Source: Nitrospirota bacterium (GTDB taxonomy: Bacteria; Nitrospirota; Nitrospiria; Nitrospirales; Nitrospiraceae). Taken from it: a stretch of 14,667 nt of DNA. The notes below the pieces were generated by a model. It worked only from the letters and a program-made list of their open reading frames with translations. It ran no database searches and had not been told where the DNA came from. Of the stretch, positions 120 through 2,626 are shown piece after piece. Within the stretch, counting starts at the first letter, position 1, and each line of letters begins with the position of its first letter. Location: positions 1 through 14,667 of the forward strand of contig JAIBHQ010000005.1 of assembly GCA_020028595.1 (NCBI GenBank), given 5' to 3'. The position numbers and the translations under genes were made by a program.

Positions 120-161
120 GGCGACAGGCTTGGAAGCGGCCTGTCGCCTTTCTATTTTTTT
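120..161 (+). terminator. Intrinsic terminator; also hairpin I of repeat element 1
   Basis: A perfect 10-bp stem (120-129 with 139-148) encloses a 9-nt loop, TTGGAAGCG, and is followed at once by a T-rich tract at 149-161. This is the form of a Rho-independent terminator for transcription to the right. The same loop (YTNNNAGCG) recurs in hairpins at 2219-2253 and 2431-2463 with different stem sequences, so this is also a member of a repeat family. Confidence 0.75.
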
Positions 162-283
162 ATTTGTTGGTGAGTCTCTCTCTTTGCGAGTGCTGGTTGG
201 TCTGCTCCGACTGCGCGCATCGAACGAGCACCTTCTGAGTGTGCGCGTTCTGCGAGCAAGGGAGCAGACCAACCCGCACTCGC
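120..283 (+). repeat. Composite two-hairpin repeat, element 1
   Basis: Hairpin I (120-148) is followed by a pyrimidine tract (176-185, CTCTCTCTTT) and then by hairpin II. The arms of hairpin II are 186-208 and 261-283, with 22 of 23 positions paired and one T/C mismatch. Its apex, 210-258, carries the words ACTGCGCGC, CGAGCAC, TTCTGA, GTGCGCG and GCGAGCA. The same words occur in the same order and spacing at 2502-2550. The inner hairpin GCAC...GTGC presents TTCTGA in its loop. This repeat fills the gene-free stretch between the left-edge gene and the small Cys-rich gene. Function unknown. Confidence 0.7.
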
Positions 284-302
284 CATCCGTCTCTGCGTCC
301 GC

Positions 303-554
303 CTACCCTTTATCCTTGTAGCTCGGCATCGCCGTCCCCGCATCCCTCGGATGGATGACCCTGGCTTGATGGTCTTTCTTATGGCAGGTGCCTTTCTCAA
401 CGGTATAGGCCGTGCTCAAATTTTCTTTAATGTGCTTCTCAACCTGCTCGCAGAGATCTTCAGACGTGACGCCGAGACAGTGAAAACAGCAGGGCCGAGG
501 GTCTTCTTTGAGCGCCCTCTCAATGGTCGCCACGATGTCGTGCACAGTCTTCAT
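303..554 (-). CDS. Small Cys/His-rich protein of unknown function
   Basis: Encodes 83 residues. I do not recognise the family with certainty. Visible are C22, C23 and C26 in a PCCFHC motif, then C35, then C57 followed by H58 and H62, with a helical-looking segment between. An N-terminal C..C cluster, a helix and a later G-x-C segment suggest a small metal-binding, perhaps winged-helix-like, protein. This is inference. The ATG (554-552) overlaps the TGA of the DUF2127 gene as ATGA, so it is the last gene of a three-gene translationally coupled set. It ends 19 bp from the arm of repeat element 1. No signal peptide or membrane segment is visible. Confidence 0.65.
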   Translation of the reverse strand: MKTVHDIVATIERALKEDPRPCCFHCLGVTSEDLCEQVEKHIKENLSTAYTVEKGTCHKKDHQARVIHPRDAGTAMPSYKDKG

Positions 555-1105
555 GAGTCGTGTCCAAGCATAGCAGATTCATCGAGTGGCGCGGATTCGC
601 TGGTGTTTTTGCTGCGCTCCGACTTGAGATGCGCCACGAGGTACCAGACAATCGCAACATTGATCACCATGACCACCAACTTCAGCAGCGAAAACTGCTG
701 AGACAGCGTATAGACCTCGACCGGGATAAAGAGGCTGGTGGAAACGACCGCGAGATAGGGCGCCCACCACATCGCCAGCCAGAGACCGATGCCCTCCACC
801 AGCGACAATGAGCCATACACCAGGCTGCCGGCACTGAGCGCTTCGAGAGTGCGGGCGTCCATGACTCCGGCCGTGACAATGAACCCGTGCACGATGCGAT
901 TGTTCGGGTCCGCATGCAGGGCGTTGACGACATGTTCGAGCCACGCGGCGAGATCCTGGTGGATCAGGGCCAGCAGACCGGCACCGGTGCCGAACAATAA
1001 CAGGCCCTTGACGAGTTTGAAGCCGGCGATCGCACGGAGCTCATTCTTGGGAGTTGCTTTTTTCAATGGGAAGCTTGATCCACCACGGTGGTCACCCCTA
1101 TTCAC
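551..1105 (-). CDS. DUF2127-family integral membrane protein
   Basis: Encodes 184 residues with a soluble N-terminal ~20 residues, the family-like opening [19 protein letters not shown] (residues 23-41), and about four hydrophobic segments (roughly 29-49, 92-113, 114-132 and 137-160). The hydrophilic, Ser/Glu-rich tail is about 24 residues. This matches the DUF2127 predicted membrane proteins, whose biochemical role is not established. The start is GTG at 1105-1103, forming a GTGA overlap with the stop of the DUF1348 gene, with a GGGG Shine-Dalgarno-like run just upstream; no internal ATG offers a better start. The assignment is from sequence resemblance only. Confidence 0.78.
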
Positions 1106-1575
1106 AGCCCCAGATCGGACAGCCCGGCGTGATCGTCCGGGCGGCGGCCCAGCGGCCAGCGGTACTTGCGGTCGGCCTCCTTGATCGGGAGGTCGTTGAT
1201 GCTGGCGATGCGCCGTTGCATGAGGCCCTGCCCGGTGAATTCCCAGTTTTCGTTACCGTAGGAACGAAACCAGTTGCCCGCATCGTCGTGCCACTCGTAG
1301 GCAAACCGGACGGCGATCCGGTTGTCATGGAAGGCCCAGAGTTCCTTGATCAGGCGGTAGTCGAGCTCCTTCGCCCATTTGCGCTGCAGGAACTGCACGA
1401 TCGCCTCGCGCCCCGCAAGAAATTCGGCCCGGTTGCGCCACGTGCTGTCAACGGTGTAGGCCAGCGACACTTTGTGCGGGTCGCGCGTATTCCAGCCGTC
1501 TTCGGCCATGCGCACCTTCTGCGCGGCCGTTTCACGGGTGAAGGGAGGCAAGGGAGGACGGCTGGTCTCGCTCAC
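1102..1575 (-). CDS. DUF1348 / NTF2-like (SnoaL-fold) protein
   Basis: Encodes 157 residues. The segment W28-N-T-R-D to about residue 135, with conserved-looking [27 protein letters not shown] and NENWEF stretches, is typical of DUF1348 proteins, a branch of the NTF2-like alpha+beta barrel superfamily. Members are cytosolic and small-molecule binding or enzymatic; no specific substrate is known to me. The start is GTG 1575-1573 with an AGGAG ribosome-binding site 5 bases upstream (AGGAG-CAGAACT-GTG spacing). It is the first of three genes joined by 4-nt overlaps. The ParE-type toxin gene lies 72 bp upstream on the same strand, and read-through from the toxin-antitoxin promoter is possible. 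Confidence 0.82.
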
Positions 1576-1647
1576 AGTTCTGCTCCTGTTCAGAAGGCAT
1601 CAGGCACCGCTACCCCGACGGCCAGTGCATGGAGTTCCCGCCAAACT

Positions 1648-1947
1648 TTATTCGCCTTTTCGGAATTCTCGGGCTCCATGCAGGACACCCAGGACCGTGA
1701 CCTCATTCCCGTGAACTTCATAGAACAACCGATAGGTACGGATCAACAGTTCTCGAACGTTCGGATCTCCGATCTCAGGAACCACGCGCCCACGCTCGGA
1801 TAACGTGCTGAGACTTTCGGCTTTGCTGGAGACTTCATCGAGAAAAGCCAGGGCAGAAGGAGGAGAATCGTTCGCGATATAGGCTACTATCTCATCGAGG
1901 TCAGTTCGCGCACCAGGCGTCCAGACTACTTCGCGCCGCTTTGCCAC
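1648..1947 (-). CDS. ParE/RelE-superfamily toxin of a type II toxin-antitoxin system
   Basis: Encodes 99 residues. It shows the ParE/RelE pattern: a strand, then a helix (GARTDLDEIVAYIAND), a second helix (SALAFLDEVSSKAESL), R-G-R-V-V-P-E, then RELLIRTYRLFYEV and a final strand ending V-L-H-G-A-R-E-F. The R..VPE / YRLFYEV layout favours the ParE branch (gyrase poison) over RelE (mRNA interferase), but the target cannot be read from sequence. The frame is open further upstream. I chose GTG 1947-1945 because AGGA lies 5-6 bases before it and the fold begins right after; this gives a 22-bp overlap with the antitoxin gene, as expected of a coupled pair. Confidence 0.85.
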   Translation of the reverse strand: MAKRREVVWTPGARTDLDEIVAYIANDSPPSALAFLDEVSSKAESLSTLSERGRVVPEIGDPNVRELLIRTYRLFYEVHGNEVTVLGVLHGAREFRKGE

Positions 1948-2120
1948 TTTTTCCTGAGCTCGCGCATGACGTCCTCGTGCCGGAGCTTCTTCCCCTGCGC
2001 GAATTCCTGCCTGCCACGCTCGACCGTCTGCAACACGTAGAGACGATACTGGATCTCGTCCAGAGTGCAATCCTCTGGAAGCTTGTCGAGTAACTCAATG
2101 ACGGCCTGCTTGGTAGTCAT
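1926..2120 (-). CDS. Antitoxin partner of the ParE/RelE-type toxin
   Basis: Encodes 64 residues, mostly helical and charged, starting MTTKQAVIELLDKLPEDC. It precedes and overlaps the toxin gene, the usual antitoxin-first order. I cannot assign it to a named antitoxin family (RelB, ParD, Phd); the N-terminal helix with LPEDCTLDEIQYRLYVL resembles antitoxins of ParE-type pairs, where a C-terminal segment wraps the toxin. The frame could start at GTG 2135, but ATG 2120-2118 has a GAGGGGG run 5-8 bases upstream and is preferred. A TTGACA-17-CATAAT promoter lies about 30 bp upstream. Confidence 0.8.
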   Translation of the reverse strand: MTTKQAVIELLDKLPEDCTLDEIQYRLYVLQTVERGRQEFAQGKKLRHEDVMRELRKKWQSGAK

Positions 2121-2147
2121 GCCCGCCCCCCTCACTCATCAGACCCA

Positions 2148-2176
2148 ATTATGTCGCCAGTCCGAGGACCTGTCAA
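2148..2176 (-). promoter_or_regulatory. Sigma70-like promoter of the toxin-antitoxin pair
   Basis: On the minus strand, TTGACA (2176-2171) and CATAAT (2153-2148) are separated by exactly 17 bp: a perfect -35 and a 5/6 -10. The predicted start near 2141 leaves a leader of about 20 nt with the Shine-Dalgarno before ATG 2120. The spacer contains GTCCTCGGAC, a short inverted repeat that could be an antitoxin operator (inference). Confidence 0.75.
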
Positions 2177-2193
2177 CGGAGTTATGGGATCAG

Positions 2194-2211
2194 AGTGCAT
2201 TTCCCTGCACT
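2194..2211. promoter_or_regulatory. Candidate operator palindrome upstream of the TA promoter
   Basis: AGTGCA (2194-2199) and TGCACT (2206-2211) form a perfect 6-bp inverted repeat with a 6-nt centre, about 20 bp upstream of the -35 box. Beside it, CTCGGACCAG (minus strand, 2219-2210) repeats the spacer word CTCGGACTGG. Such paired sites are common in autoregulated TA promoters, but no binding is shown here. Confidence 0.3.
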
Positions 2212-2309
2212 GGTCCGAGCGAGGGATAAGGTTGCAAGCGCCTTATCCCTTGCCCACACTCTCTCTTTTCAACGGCGGATCGGGTTTCCTTCAACTGCGC
2301 GCTCTTTTT

Positions 2310-2349
2310 CACCCGCCCACCCCGGGCGTTGTCGCACCCACCCACCCCG
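2310..2349. repeat. C-rich 15-bp direct repeat; G-tract cluster on the minus strand
   Basis: CACCCGCCCACCCCG (2310-2324) and CACCCACCCACCCCG (2335-2349) match at 14 of 15 positions with a 25-bp period. The minus strand carries six runs of three or more G, in two sets of three with single-base loops. A long-loop G-quadruplex is conceivable but unproven. It lies inside the interruption of repeat element 2. Confidence 0.5.
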
Positions 2350-2398
2350 CGCCTGCAAGGCAGGCGCTTCTCCACGGGGATGCGCCCTTTGCCCGTGG
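2349..2398. repeat. Two adjacent short hairpins
   Basis: GCGCCTGC (2349-2356) pairs perfectly with GCAGGCGC (2360-2367) across a 3-nt loop. CCACGGG (2372-2378) pairs with CCCGTGG (2392-2398) across 13 nt. No T-run follows on either strand, so neither looks like a terminator. They sit directly before the displaced core word of repeat element 2. Confidence 0.5.
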
Positions 2399-2430
2399 CG
2401 AGCACCTTCTGAATGTCTGCTCCATTCCGA

Positions 2431-2475
2431 GCGGGGACAGGCCTATCAGCGGTCTGTCCCCGCCCACACTTTTTT
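2431..2475 (+). terminator. Terminator-like hairpin; hairpin I of repeat element 3
   Basis: GCGGGGACAG (2431-2440) pairs perfectly with 2454-2463 around a 13-nt apex, and T6 lies at 2470-2475 after a 6-base spacer. This is terminator-like for rightward transcription, although no plus-strand gene precedes it and the spacer makes it weak. Aligned with the hairpin at 120-148, the inner stem and loop share GACAGGC, AGCGG and CTGTC. Confidence 0.45.
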
Positions 2476-2564
2476 ACCAGGGGCGACGTGGCTGACTCGC
2501 AACTGCGCGCGTCCACCGAGCACATTCTGATCGTGCGCGGTGCGCGAGCACGGCGAGTCAGCCA
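2431..2564 (+). repeat. Composite two-hairpin repeat, element 3
   Basis: Hairpin I (2431-2463) and a T-run precede hairpin II, whose arms 2489-2500 and 2553-2564 are a perfect 12-bp inverted repeat (TGGCTGACTCGC). The 49-nt core 2502-2550 matches the core of element 1 (210-258) at 40 of 49 positions with no gap. The arms of the two copies match at only about 4 of 12 positions, yet each copy is fully self-complementary. The spacers between core and arms are identical in length (1 nt left, 2 nt right). Confidence 0.72.
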
Positions 2565-2626
2565 GGGAGCCCTTTCCTCACACGCGCGTTGCGCGAGCAC
2601 GGAAGGAACCCGAGACGCCACGTTGC
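2565..2626 (+). repeat. Truncated hairpin II copy next to element 3
   Basis: CCTTTCC (2571-2577) pairs with GGAAGG (2601-2606) with one bulged T, and GGG 2565-2567 can pair with CCC 2609-2611. The apex ends TTGCGCGAGCAC, matching the 3' end of the element 3 core, and contains its own CGCGC-GTT-GCGCG hairpin (2583-2595). A wider inverted repeat, 2483-2492 with 2617-2626 (ACGTGGC/GCCACGT plus flanks), encloses both this copy and hairpin II of element 3. It ends 7 bp from the hit stop codon. Confidence 0.5.

Follow-up and report, generated by a model that had tools for sequence, protein, structure and literature searches.

The window analyzed here, the whole 14,667-nucleotide (nt) stretch of contig JAIBHQ010000005.1 of a Nitrospirota bacterium (family Nitrospiraceae), belongs to a 1.3-Mb partial genome and carries copies of an apparently undescribed element: a long hairpin with a fixed tip and covarying arms, located between genes in Nitrospira-type genomes. 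We class it among the interspersed bacterial hairpin repeats, as an apparently new variant. Our preferred reading, to which we give about an even chance, is that of a dispersed non-coding repeat resembling repetitive extragenic palindromic (REP) sequences and miniature inverted-repeat transposable elements (MITEs), whose working form is a long imperfect hairpin made from one DNA strand (the + strand) and whose movement and persistence depend on the folded strand. A first description made from the letters of the window (the original prediction) had reported a two-hairpin repeat family; the repeat observation overall proved real, whereas strand-specific folding and replication orientation were not foreseen in it.

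A conserved core between covarying arms

Hairpin II is a single long imperfect hairpin composed of a core of approximately 50 nt and arms of approximately 22 base pairs (bp), which have diverged between copies yet remain complementary. The core does not form an open loop, the hairpin running on through it. Its + strand sequence is TGC-[G]-CGCA-(TC)-GAACG-[A]-GCAC-NN-TCTG-NN-x-GTGC-[G]-CGTTC-TGCG-[A]-GCA; the bracketed bases oppose one another, giving a G.A and an A.G mismatch, and TC is bulged out. Two complete copies are present in the window, both on the + strand. The first, at 186-283 (arms 186-208/261-283, core 209-260), is an inverted repeat with a predicted fold and is matched by our covariance model R1 at 184-284 (105 bits; copy included in the model); the second, at 2481-2572 (arms 2481-2500/2553-2572, core 2501-2552), is likewise an inverted repeat, matched by R1 at 2476-2576 (92.1 bits; copy outside the model). 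As originally predicted, the two cores match without gaps (210-261 versus 2502-2553, 81% identity over 52 nt), and within each copy the 12-nt inner arms (197-208/261-272 and 2489-2500/2553-2564) are complementary throughout, with identity at 4 of 12 positions between the copies.

Copies for the arm-pairing, G.T/A.C, gene-context and mismatch-recount statistics were chosen by their core only. Among copies selected by an ungapped core-profile match, the G.A mismatch was found in 178/182, the A.G mismatch in 179/182 and the TC bulge in 165/182; since 120 loci (L117-L236) had been fetched by a pattern fixing the left-hand mismatch bases and the bulge, we recounted without them and obtained 169/172, 166/172 and 155/172, respectively. 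Own arms were Watson-Crick paired at 83.4%, versus 67.4% for arms swapped between copies, with a mean score of 20.0 versus 14.5 (standard deviation about 2.5; 241 copies), and 92 of the 241 copies singly exceeded the 99th percentile of the swapped control. This control is high because the arms share a consensus: they are homologous between copies, with a gapless identity of 43% (left) and 39% (right) versus 28-29% after shuffling (241 copies), and the earlier view that arms lack similarity between copies had to be abandoned.

Covariation was also evident in alignment A1 (69 rows), in which 499 cells had changed on both sides versus 185 after shuffling, none of 500 shuffles reaching the observed value, and in which the true structure paired 82% versus 35-49% for slid structures; A1 consists of 69 of the 70 best-paired among 139 diverse copies, by which its helix-1 figures are flattered. 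In 62 pairs of corresponding loci, several of them with low flank identity and thus possibly paralogous, 1482 base pairs were unchanged, 286 double changes kept pairing and 129 broke it, 162 single changes kept pairing, 293 single changes broke it and 24 positions were gapped. At one locus pair (L284/L317), with flanks 94% and 88.5% identical and a conserved core, the arms are wholly different yet again complementary, which makes it a candidate for re-insertion or for arm rewriting by template switching. These two loci are orthologous, and a nearly identical right flank adjoins the hairpin. Core identity across genera reaches 98%.

One strand maintains the fold

Arm mismatches on the + strand comprised 342 G.T versus 143 A.C, both scored alike, or 219 versus 64 when only mismatches with Watson-Crick neighbours were counted, and 292 versus 138 without the pattern-fetched loci. 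The excess was present in all four gene contexts (205:74, 52:30, 44:21 and 69:34). The swapped-arm control gave a G.T/A.C ratio of 1.44, and composition therefore accounts for only part of it. The predicted fold was more stable on the + strand in 211/232 copies with DNA parameters, by approximately 3.7 kcal/mol, and in 180/232 with RNA parameters. Because G.T exceeds A.C on the + strand, the fold is kept on that strand, as RNA or single-stranded DNA. As far as sequence comparison and predicted folds can show it, the fold is thus maintained strand-specifically, and the original proposal of a conserved apex with covarying stems, whose fold is kept as RNA or single-stranded DNA, is supported.

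Units nested in the tips of their own hairpins

The original prediction counted three independent composites and a truncated hairpin. Instead, the segment described as interrupted (2282-2416) and the one described as truncated (2577-2611) belong to a single hairpin as its two halves, and a complete unit separates them. Arm GAAGGAACCC (2602-2611) is complementary to GGGTTTCCTTC (2282-2292), and the stretch 2565-2612 therefore forms the right-hand half of the interrupted copy; the outer arms also pair in an RNAfold prediction of 2211-2615. All parts lie on the + strand. The outer hairpin II begins with its left arm and the first 10 nt of the core (2282-2302), continues beyond an insert with CGAGCACCTTCTGAATGT (2399-2416; 94% identical to 225-242), which ends in the tip loop, and is completed by its right half and right arm (2577-2611; nhmmer match of 2563-2600 to positions 14-51, E 0.0018). 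The inserted unit (approximately 2417-2575) is a full composite of hairpin I and hairpin II.

The same arrangement recurs elsewhere. A right half was located 18-70 nt downstream on the same strand in 51 of 370 full copies, versus 1 of 370 in the opposite-strand control, the 370 including corresponding loci of related genomes and hence not being independent. For 18 of the 51, a left half was also found upstream; the right halves of these 18 sit 29-35 nt from the inner core, and 12 of them begin at tip position 23. In one case (L067) the tip is present on both halves (TCTTCTGAGGCC / CCTTCGGAGGCC), which suggests a target duplication of approximately 4-12 nt, apparently inexact in most cases. Units are also present or absent at matching sites (e.g., L128 and L120 versus L231), although loci in the present/absent and corresponding-site comparisons are not independent. 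No genes were found between separated core halves in the collected loci. Tip nesting is thus a repeated and precise arrangement, which may include composites that moved later as one, and insertion of units at the hairpin tips of their own family has occurred repeatedly. The suggestion that a core inserts into hairpin loops was correct as to insertion at hairpin tips, but whole units, not bare cores, are involved.

Distribution

The proposed covariance-model scan of this genome and its relatives returned many further copies. The partial genome of the window has 15 R1 matches at E<=1e-3, and in the Nitrospira-like family to which the window belongs 140 of 147 genomes had an R1 match, with at most 27 candidates scored per genome, so that counts are lower bounds. 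In a phylum-wide draw, R1 matched 59/245 genomes, all 59 in the window's family, and a BLAST search with the core as query hit 31 of 61 related genomes, again all within it. Six single-contig genomes contain 17 to 56 matches each, whereas some family genomes have only one or two. At least 120 public contigs match a core pattern; the 120 listed are labelled Nitrospira, Nitrospirae, Nitrospirota or Nitrospiraceae except for four (L173, L194, L216, L232), which carry the labels of Elusimicrobia, Gammaproteobacteria and Pyrinomonadaceae metagenome-assembled genomes and are probably mis-binned Nitrospira contigs. Viral contigs gave no match to one exact core pattern, and phages and plasmids none to one 101-nt BLAST query each.

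Gene context and replication orientation

None of the 307 scored copies with a gene on both sides lay inside a called gene according to codon-scored calls; the caller, which reproduces the his operon of the window, was made for this analysis, as was a longest-ORF (open reading frame) caller that placed 142/288 cores inside an ORF and was dropped as too noisy in GC-rich DNA. The gene to the right of the core mostly ends beside it. With co-directional neighbours on the minus strand, 102 of 158 copies lie 15-45 nt from the gene, and in tight co-directional contexts the core is antisense in 127 cases and sense in 24. The window offers an example: the right end of the outer hairpin II is approximately 21 nt from the stop codon of a HIT-domain gene (2633-2977, - strand).

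Orientation was then compared with the direction of the replication fork in the six single-contig genomes, four of them (G030, G084, G095, G100) from one genus, with the origin placed at dnaA and the terminus opposite. In 150 rows taken of 200 matches, the core strand ran against the fork in 109 and with it in 41, and the bias stayed significant on dropping any one genome. For 87 copies with gene context in five of the six genomes, the core was antisense in 44 and sense in 3 where operons run with the fork, and antisense in 6 and sense in 14 where they run against it (Fisher p=2e-7 between the two classes). Because the two classes differ, core direction tracks the fork more than the gene, and orientation set by genes alone was ruled out by the reversed preference in head-on operons. 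With one genome per genus (G100, G013), 41 cores ran against the fork and 7 with it, and the operon classes gave 27:1 and 1:5. The fork bias is thus present in two of the three genera tested. Since the core strand runs mostly against the fork, the folded strand serves in most cases as leading-strand template. For the bottom strands of attC sites in sedentary integrons, an equal placing is reported in 25/30 arrays and is read as limiting folding (PMC5371416).

Hairpin I and additional modules

Hairpin I is a second covarying family with the loop YTNNNAGCG, often located just upstream of hairpin II. In the window, it occurs on the + strand at 116-152 (loop TTGGAAGCG, followed by a T-rich tract; 48.5 bits with the hairpin I model R2, copy in the model), at 2218-2254 in the outer, split composite (45.4 bits, copy in the model) and at 2429-2465 in the inserted unit (46.1 bits, copy outside the model). 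The loops, which lie at 130-138, 2232-2240 and within 2429-2465, had been recognised in the original prediction, and so had stem pairs changed on both sides, which are real but number five rather than three between 116-152 and 2218-2254. A pyrimidine-rich linker (153-185, + strand) joins hairpin I to hairpin II in the first copy, in line with the C+T-rich flanks of 251 copies.

Alignment A2, whose rows were chosen for stems of at least 8 Watson-Crick pairs, showed 44 double-change cells versus 12 after shuffling. Of 19 hairpin I copies counted in loci that had been fetched for their hairpin II, 14 had a same-strand core within 160 nt downstream, and a T-rich tract often lies 3' of hairpin I. 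R2 matched seven of ten genomes (G000, G001, G002, G031, G020, G021 and, weakly, G013) and found no hairpin I in G036, G100 and G096, though these carry hairpin II; the term two-hairpin therefore fits only one branch of the family, and the original designation applies to some genera. A possible coding sequence ahead of hairpin I, whose translation ends in ..VAKR*, was rejected because it is not a consistent gene. Hairpin I often forms outward-facing inverted pairs 0.1-1.9 kb apart (several in G001, G002, G020 and G031); one pair in L037, 2274-2310(-) and 3250-3286(+), flanks a hicA/hicB-type toxin-antitoxin pair, the HicB match being just below the cut-off.

Other modules were observed as well. 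A C-rich branched insert (CACCCGCCCACC...), here termed module X, occupies the TC-bulge position of the outer core in the window (2303-2398, + strand), and similar inserts were recognised by eye in L068, L196, L169 and L003, which would fit the bulge serving as a further landing site. In a subclass of cores, a tip loop of 25-30 nt (often CGCCC...ATCYT) replaces the TCTG-type tetraloop (L136 2487-2560; L186 1263-1338; L197 4346-4419; L101 2004-2077). A motif like CTCCAAGCTCGCTCGTT(A/C)TCTC, perhaps another module or an alternative form of the tip, lies just upstream of some hairpin II copies (L086, L201, L219, L068, L065). Between the two hairpin loci of the window (303-2120), the - strand encodes accessory genes, namely DUF2127, DUF1348, a ParE-type toxin and a small ORF (1926-2120) without a Pfam match, which may be the antitoxin of that toxin.

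Interpretation and alternative explanations

If the element acts through a folded DNA strand, units would spread as, or through, folded single-stranded DNA, and a candidate enzyme would recognise the tip and the mismatches. Copies would persist best where the folding strand is not exposed as single-stranded lagging template, comparable to what is reported for attC in large chromosomal integrons. The arms may be free to change because only complementarity would matter, possibly helped by replication template switching.

Several results weigh against this explanation. Searches for Y1, Y2, reverse transcriptase and integron integrase found no mobilising enzyme linked to the element: Y1_Tnp (PF01797) is absent from copy-rich G000, G001, G002 and G010, no core lies within up to 1.5 kb on either side of the 30 inspected of 71 Y1 matches (22 in the family), and 9 of 12 genomes lack the reverse transcriptase domain RVT_1. 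In unique DNA, no clean insertion accompanied by an exact target duplication was resolved. Copies occur at the same site across genera with compensatory change (L002/L015), and such persistence is as compatible with a host function as with the remnant of a mobile element. The G.T preference does not discriminate RNA from DNA, and the conservation of the mismatches was measured on copies preselected by their core. With regard to the fork, four of the six genomes belong to one genus, so that shared copies were counted repeatedly; no bias is seen in G096 (11:10), the sole genome tested of its genus, G030 and G095 do not reach significance by themselves, the bias is weak outside operons co-directional with the fork (28:12, p=0.017), and head-on operons alone give 14:6 (p=0.12).

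As regards retroelements (group II introns, retrons and DGRs), RVT_1 was found in three of the 12 genomes and in none of G000 (77% complete), G001, G002 (89%), G010, G028 and G036. In the search for an HUH transposase of the IS200/IS605 or IS91 type, PF04986, examined besides Y1, matched none of 12 genomes, its control likewise being without a match. No transposase was recognised by eye in the 45 largest clusters of neighbouring ORFs, on which no family search was run.

The main and serious rival, which we regard as possible rather than probable, is that the element works in the core direction as a structured RNA or terminator: hairpin I would be an intrinsic terminator, and hairpin II a stem, bound by protein or resistant to RNase, by which antisense or head-on transcripts are stopped or trimmed; placement would then result from the damage done when the element lies sense within operons. 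An excess of G.U over A.C is a classical RNA signature, a T-rich tract frequently follows hairpin I, and covariation occurs at corresponding sites. Placement fits as well, given that antisense copies lie close to the stop codon at the distances described above, while sense copies between co-directional genes are far from genes (median 334/219 nt). However, orientation follows the fork even in head-on operons, a preference not significant alone; the right flank of hairpin II is C/T rich with just 26% T (251 copies), no Rfam match reached the gathering score in the window, and tip nesting is not expected of a terminator.

We also consider, as a bolder and doubtful reading, a class of single-strand-DNA mobile elements without an HUH transposase, reverse transcriptase or integron integrase, in which one-strand folded hairpins would be copied, enter the discontinuous strand at the fork and home preferentially to their own tips, producing nested landing pads.

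It is improbable that the copies are functionless remnants of defunct transposons whose arms are kept complementary by template switching and whose orientation is set by deletion of hairpins on the lagging template. Template switching can create and maintain perfect stems, as outlined in PMC8794818, the rewritten arms at the orthologous locus L284/L317 could have arisen in this way, and the core strand has the more stable fold. Nevertheless, copying from arm to arm should erase the conserved mismatches and the bulge, symmetric copying does not predict a strand-specific G.T excess, and the cores are highly identical even across genera.

The least probable reading is that of attC-like or REP-like sites that an integron integrase or a REP-associated Y1 transposase would mobilise in trans. 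In its favour, the hairpins are strand-selective, lie next to stop codons and have their folded strand on the leading template, like attC in large chromosomal integrons. Against it, shuffled sequences carry the foot motifs GTTRRRY/RYYYAAC and GTAG/CGTC no less often, several copy-rich genomes have no Y1 match, and integron integrase (TIGR02249) exceeds the cut-off in only 5/61 genomes, of which 4 belong to the window's family and none to its genus. It did not do so in G000, G001, G002, G010, G028 or G036, and the weak integrase matches present in all 61 genomes also appear in 14/14 control genomes.

With many copies in more than 100 genomes, strand choice, fork orientation, tip nesting and arm rewriting are all readable from the sequence, and the question of retention versus insertion becomes directly testable. 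Nitrospira are key nitrifiers, and the element defines there a widespread intergenic repeat for which no description was found in the literature searched, none of the listed titles on Nitrospira repeats, hairpins or noncoding RNA describing it.

Comparison with known systems

Like MITEs and the BOX, ERIC and NEMIS repeats, the element is a short, non-autonomous, modular and nested hairpin repeat; unlike them, it lacks fixed terminal inverted repeats, its arms vary and its orientation is biased relative to the fork. REPs form strand-asymmetric hairpins with mismatches, a property shared with the element. REPs, bacterial interspersed mosaic elements (BIMEs) and REPINs (paired REP sequences) are GTAG/CGTC-tagged (see PMC3733652 and PMC3116915) and, like the element, are many interspersed intergenic palindromes; CGTC-class REPs are also described as lacking a dedicated transposase (PMC3733652). 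The element is likewise dispersed, intergenic and palindromic (0/307 in called genes; 17-56 matches per single-contig genome). Its hairpin, however, is about 100 nt instead of 20-40 nt long and has no tetranucleotide tag: among 251 copies, the left and right feet carry GTAG in 5.6% and 0.4% and CGTC in 5.2% and 14.3%, below shuffled levels, and CTAC in 9.6% and 13.1%, about equal to them. Moreover, its apex is conserved and its stem variable, it nests in its own tips, and no Y1 gene was found beside it. A 2025 REP survey tabulates N. moscoviensis (PMC12306157), and single copies may already be counted in that table as generic REPs.

With regard to integrons, the element resembles attC sites in having a strand-selective fold with conserved mismatched bases (342 versus 143; 169 and 166 of 172), as judged from sequence. 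As with the element, the stem sequence of attC sites is little conserved, and their unpaired bases matter. As described in PMC5371416 and PMC11023631, one attC strand folds, mostly as leading-strand template, which is also the case here; the element would thus offer a second, independent case beside large integrons of folding hairpins placed on that template. Unlike attC, it lacks R boxes (R'' RYYYAAC and R' GTTRRRY at the hairpin ends in 0-1.2% of 251 copies, at or below shuffled levels), is scattered among core genes with no cassette array seen, and has a long conserved core and no linked integron integrase. REP and attC membership fail on the features tested and are largely refuted. The repetitive hairpin-forming elements of sponge mitochondria, as presented in PMC2800124, are also hairpins dispersed in intergenic DNA, from which the element differs in its bacterial host and its strand-specific conserved apex with mismatches.

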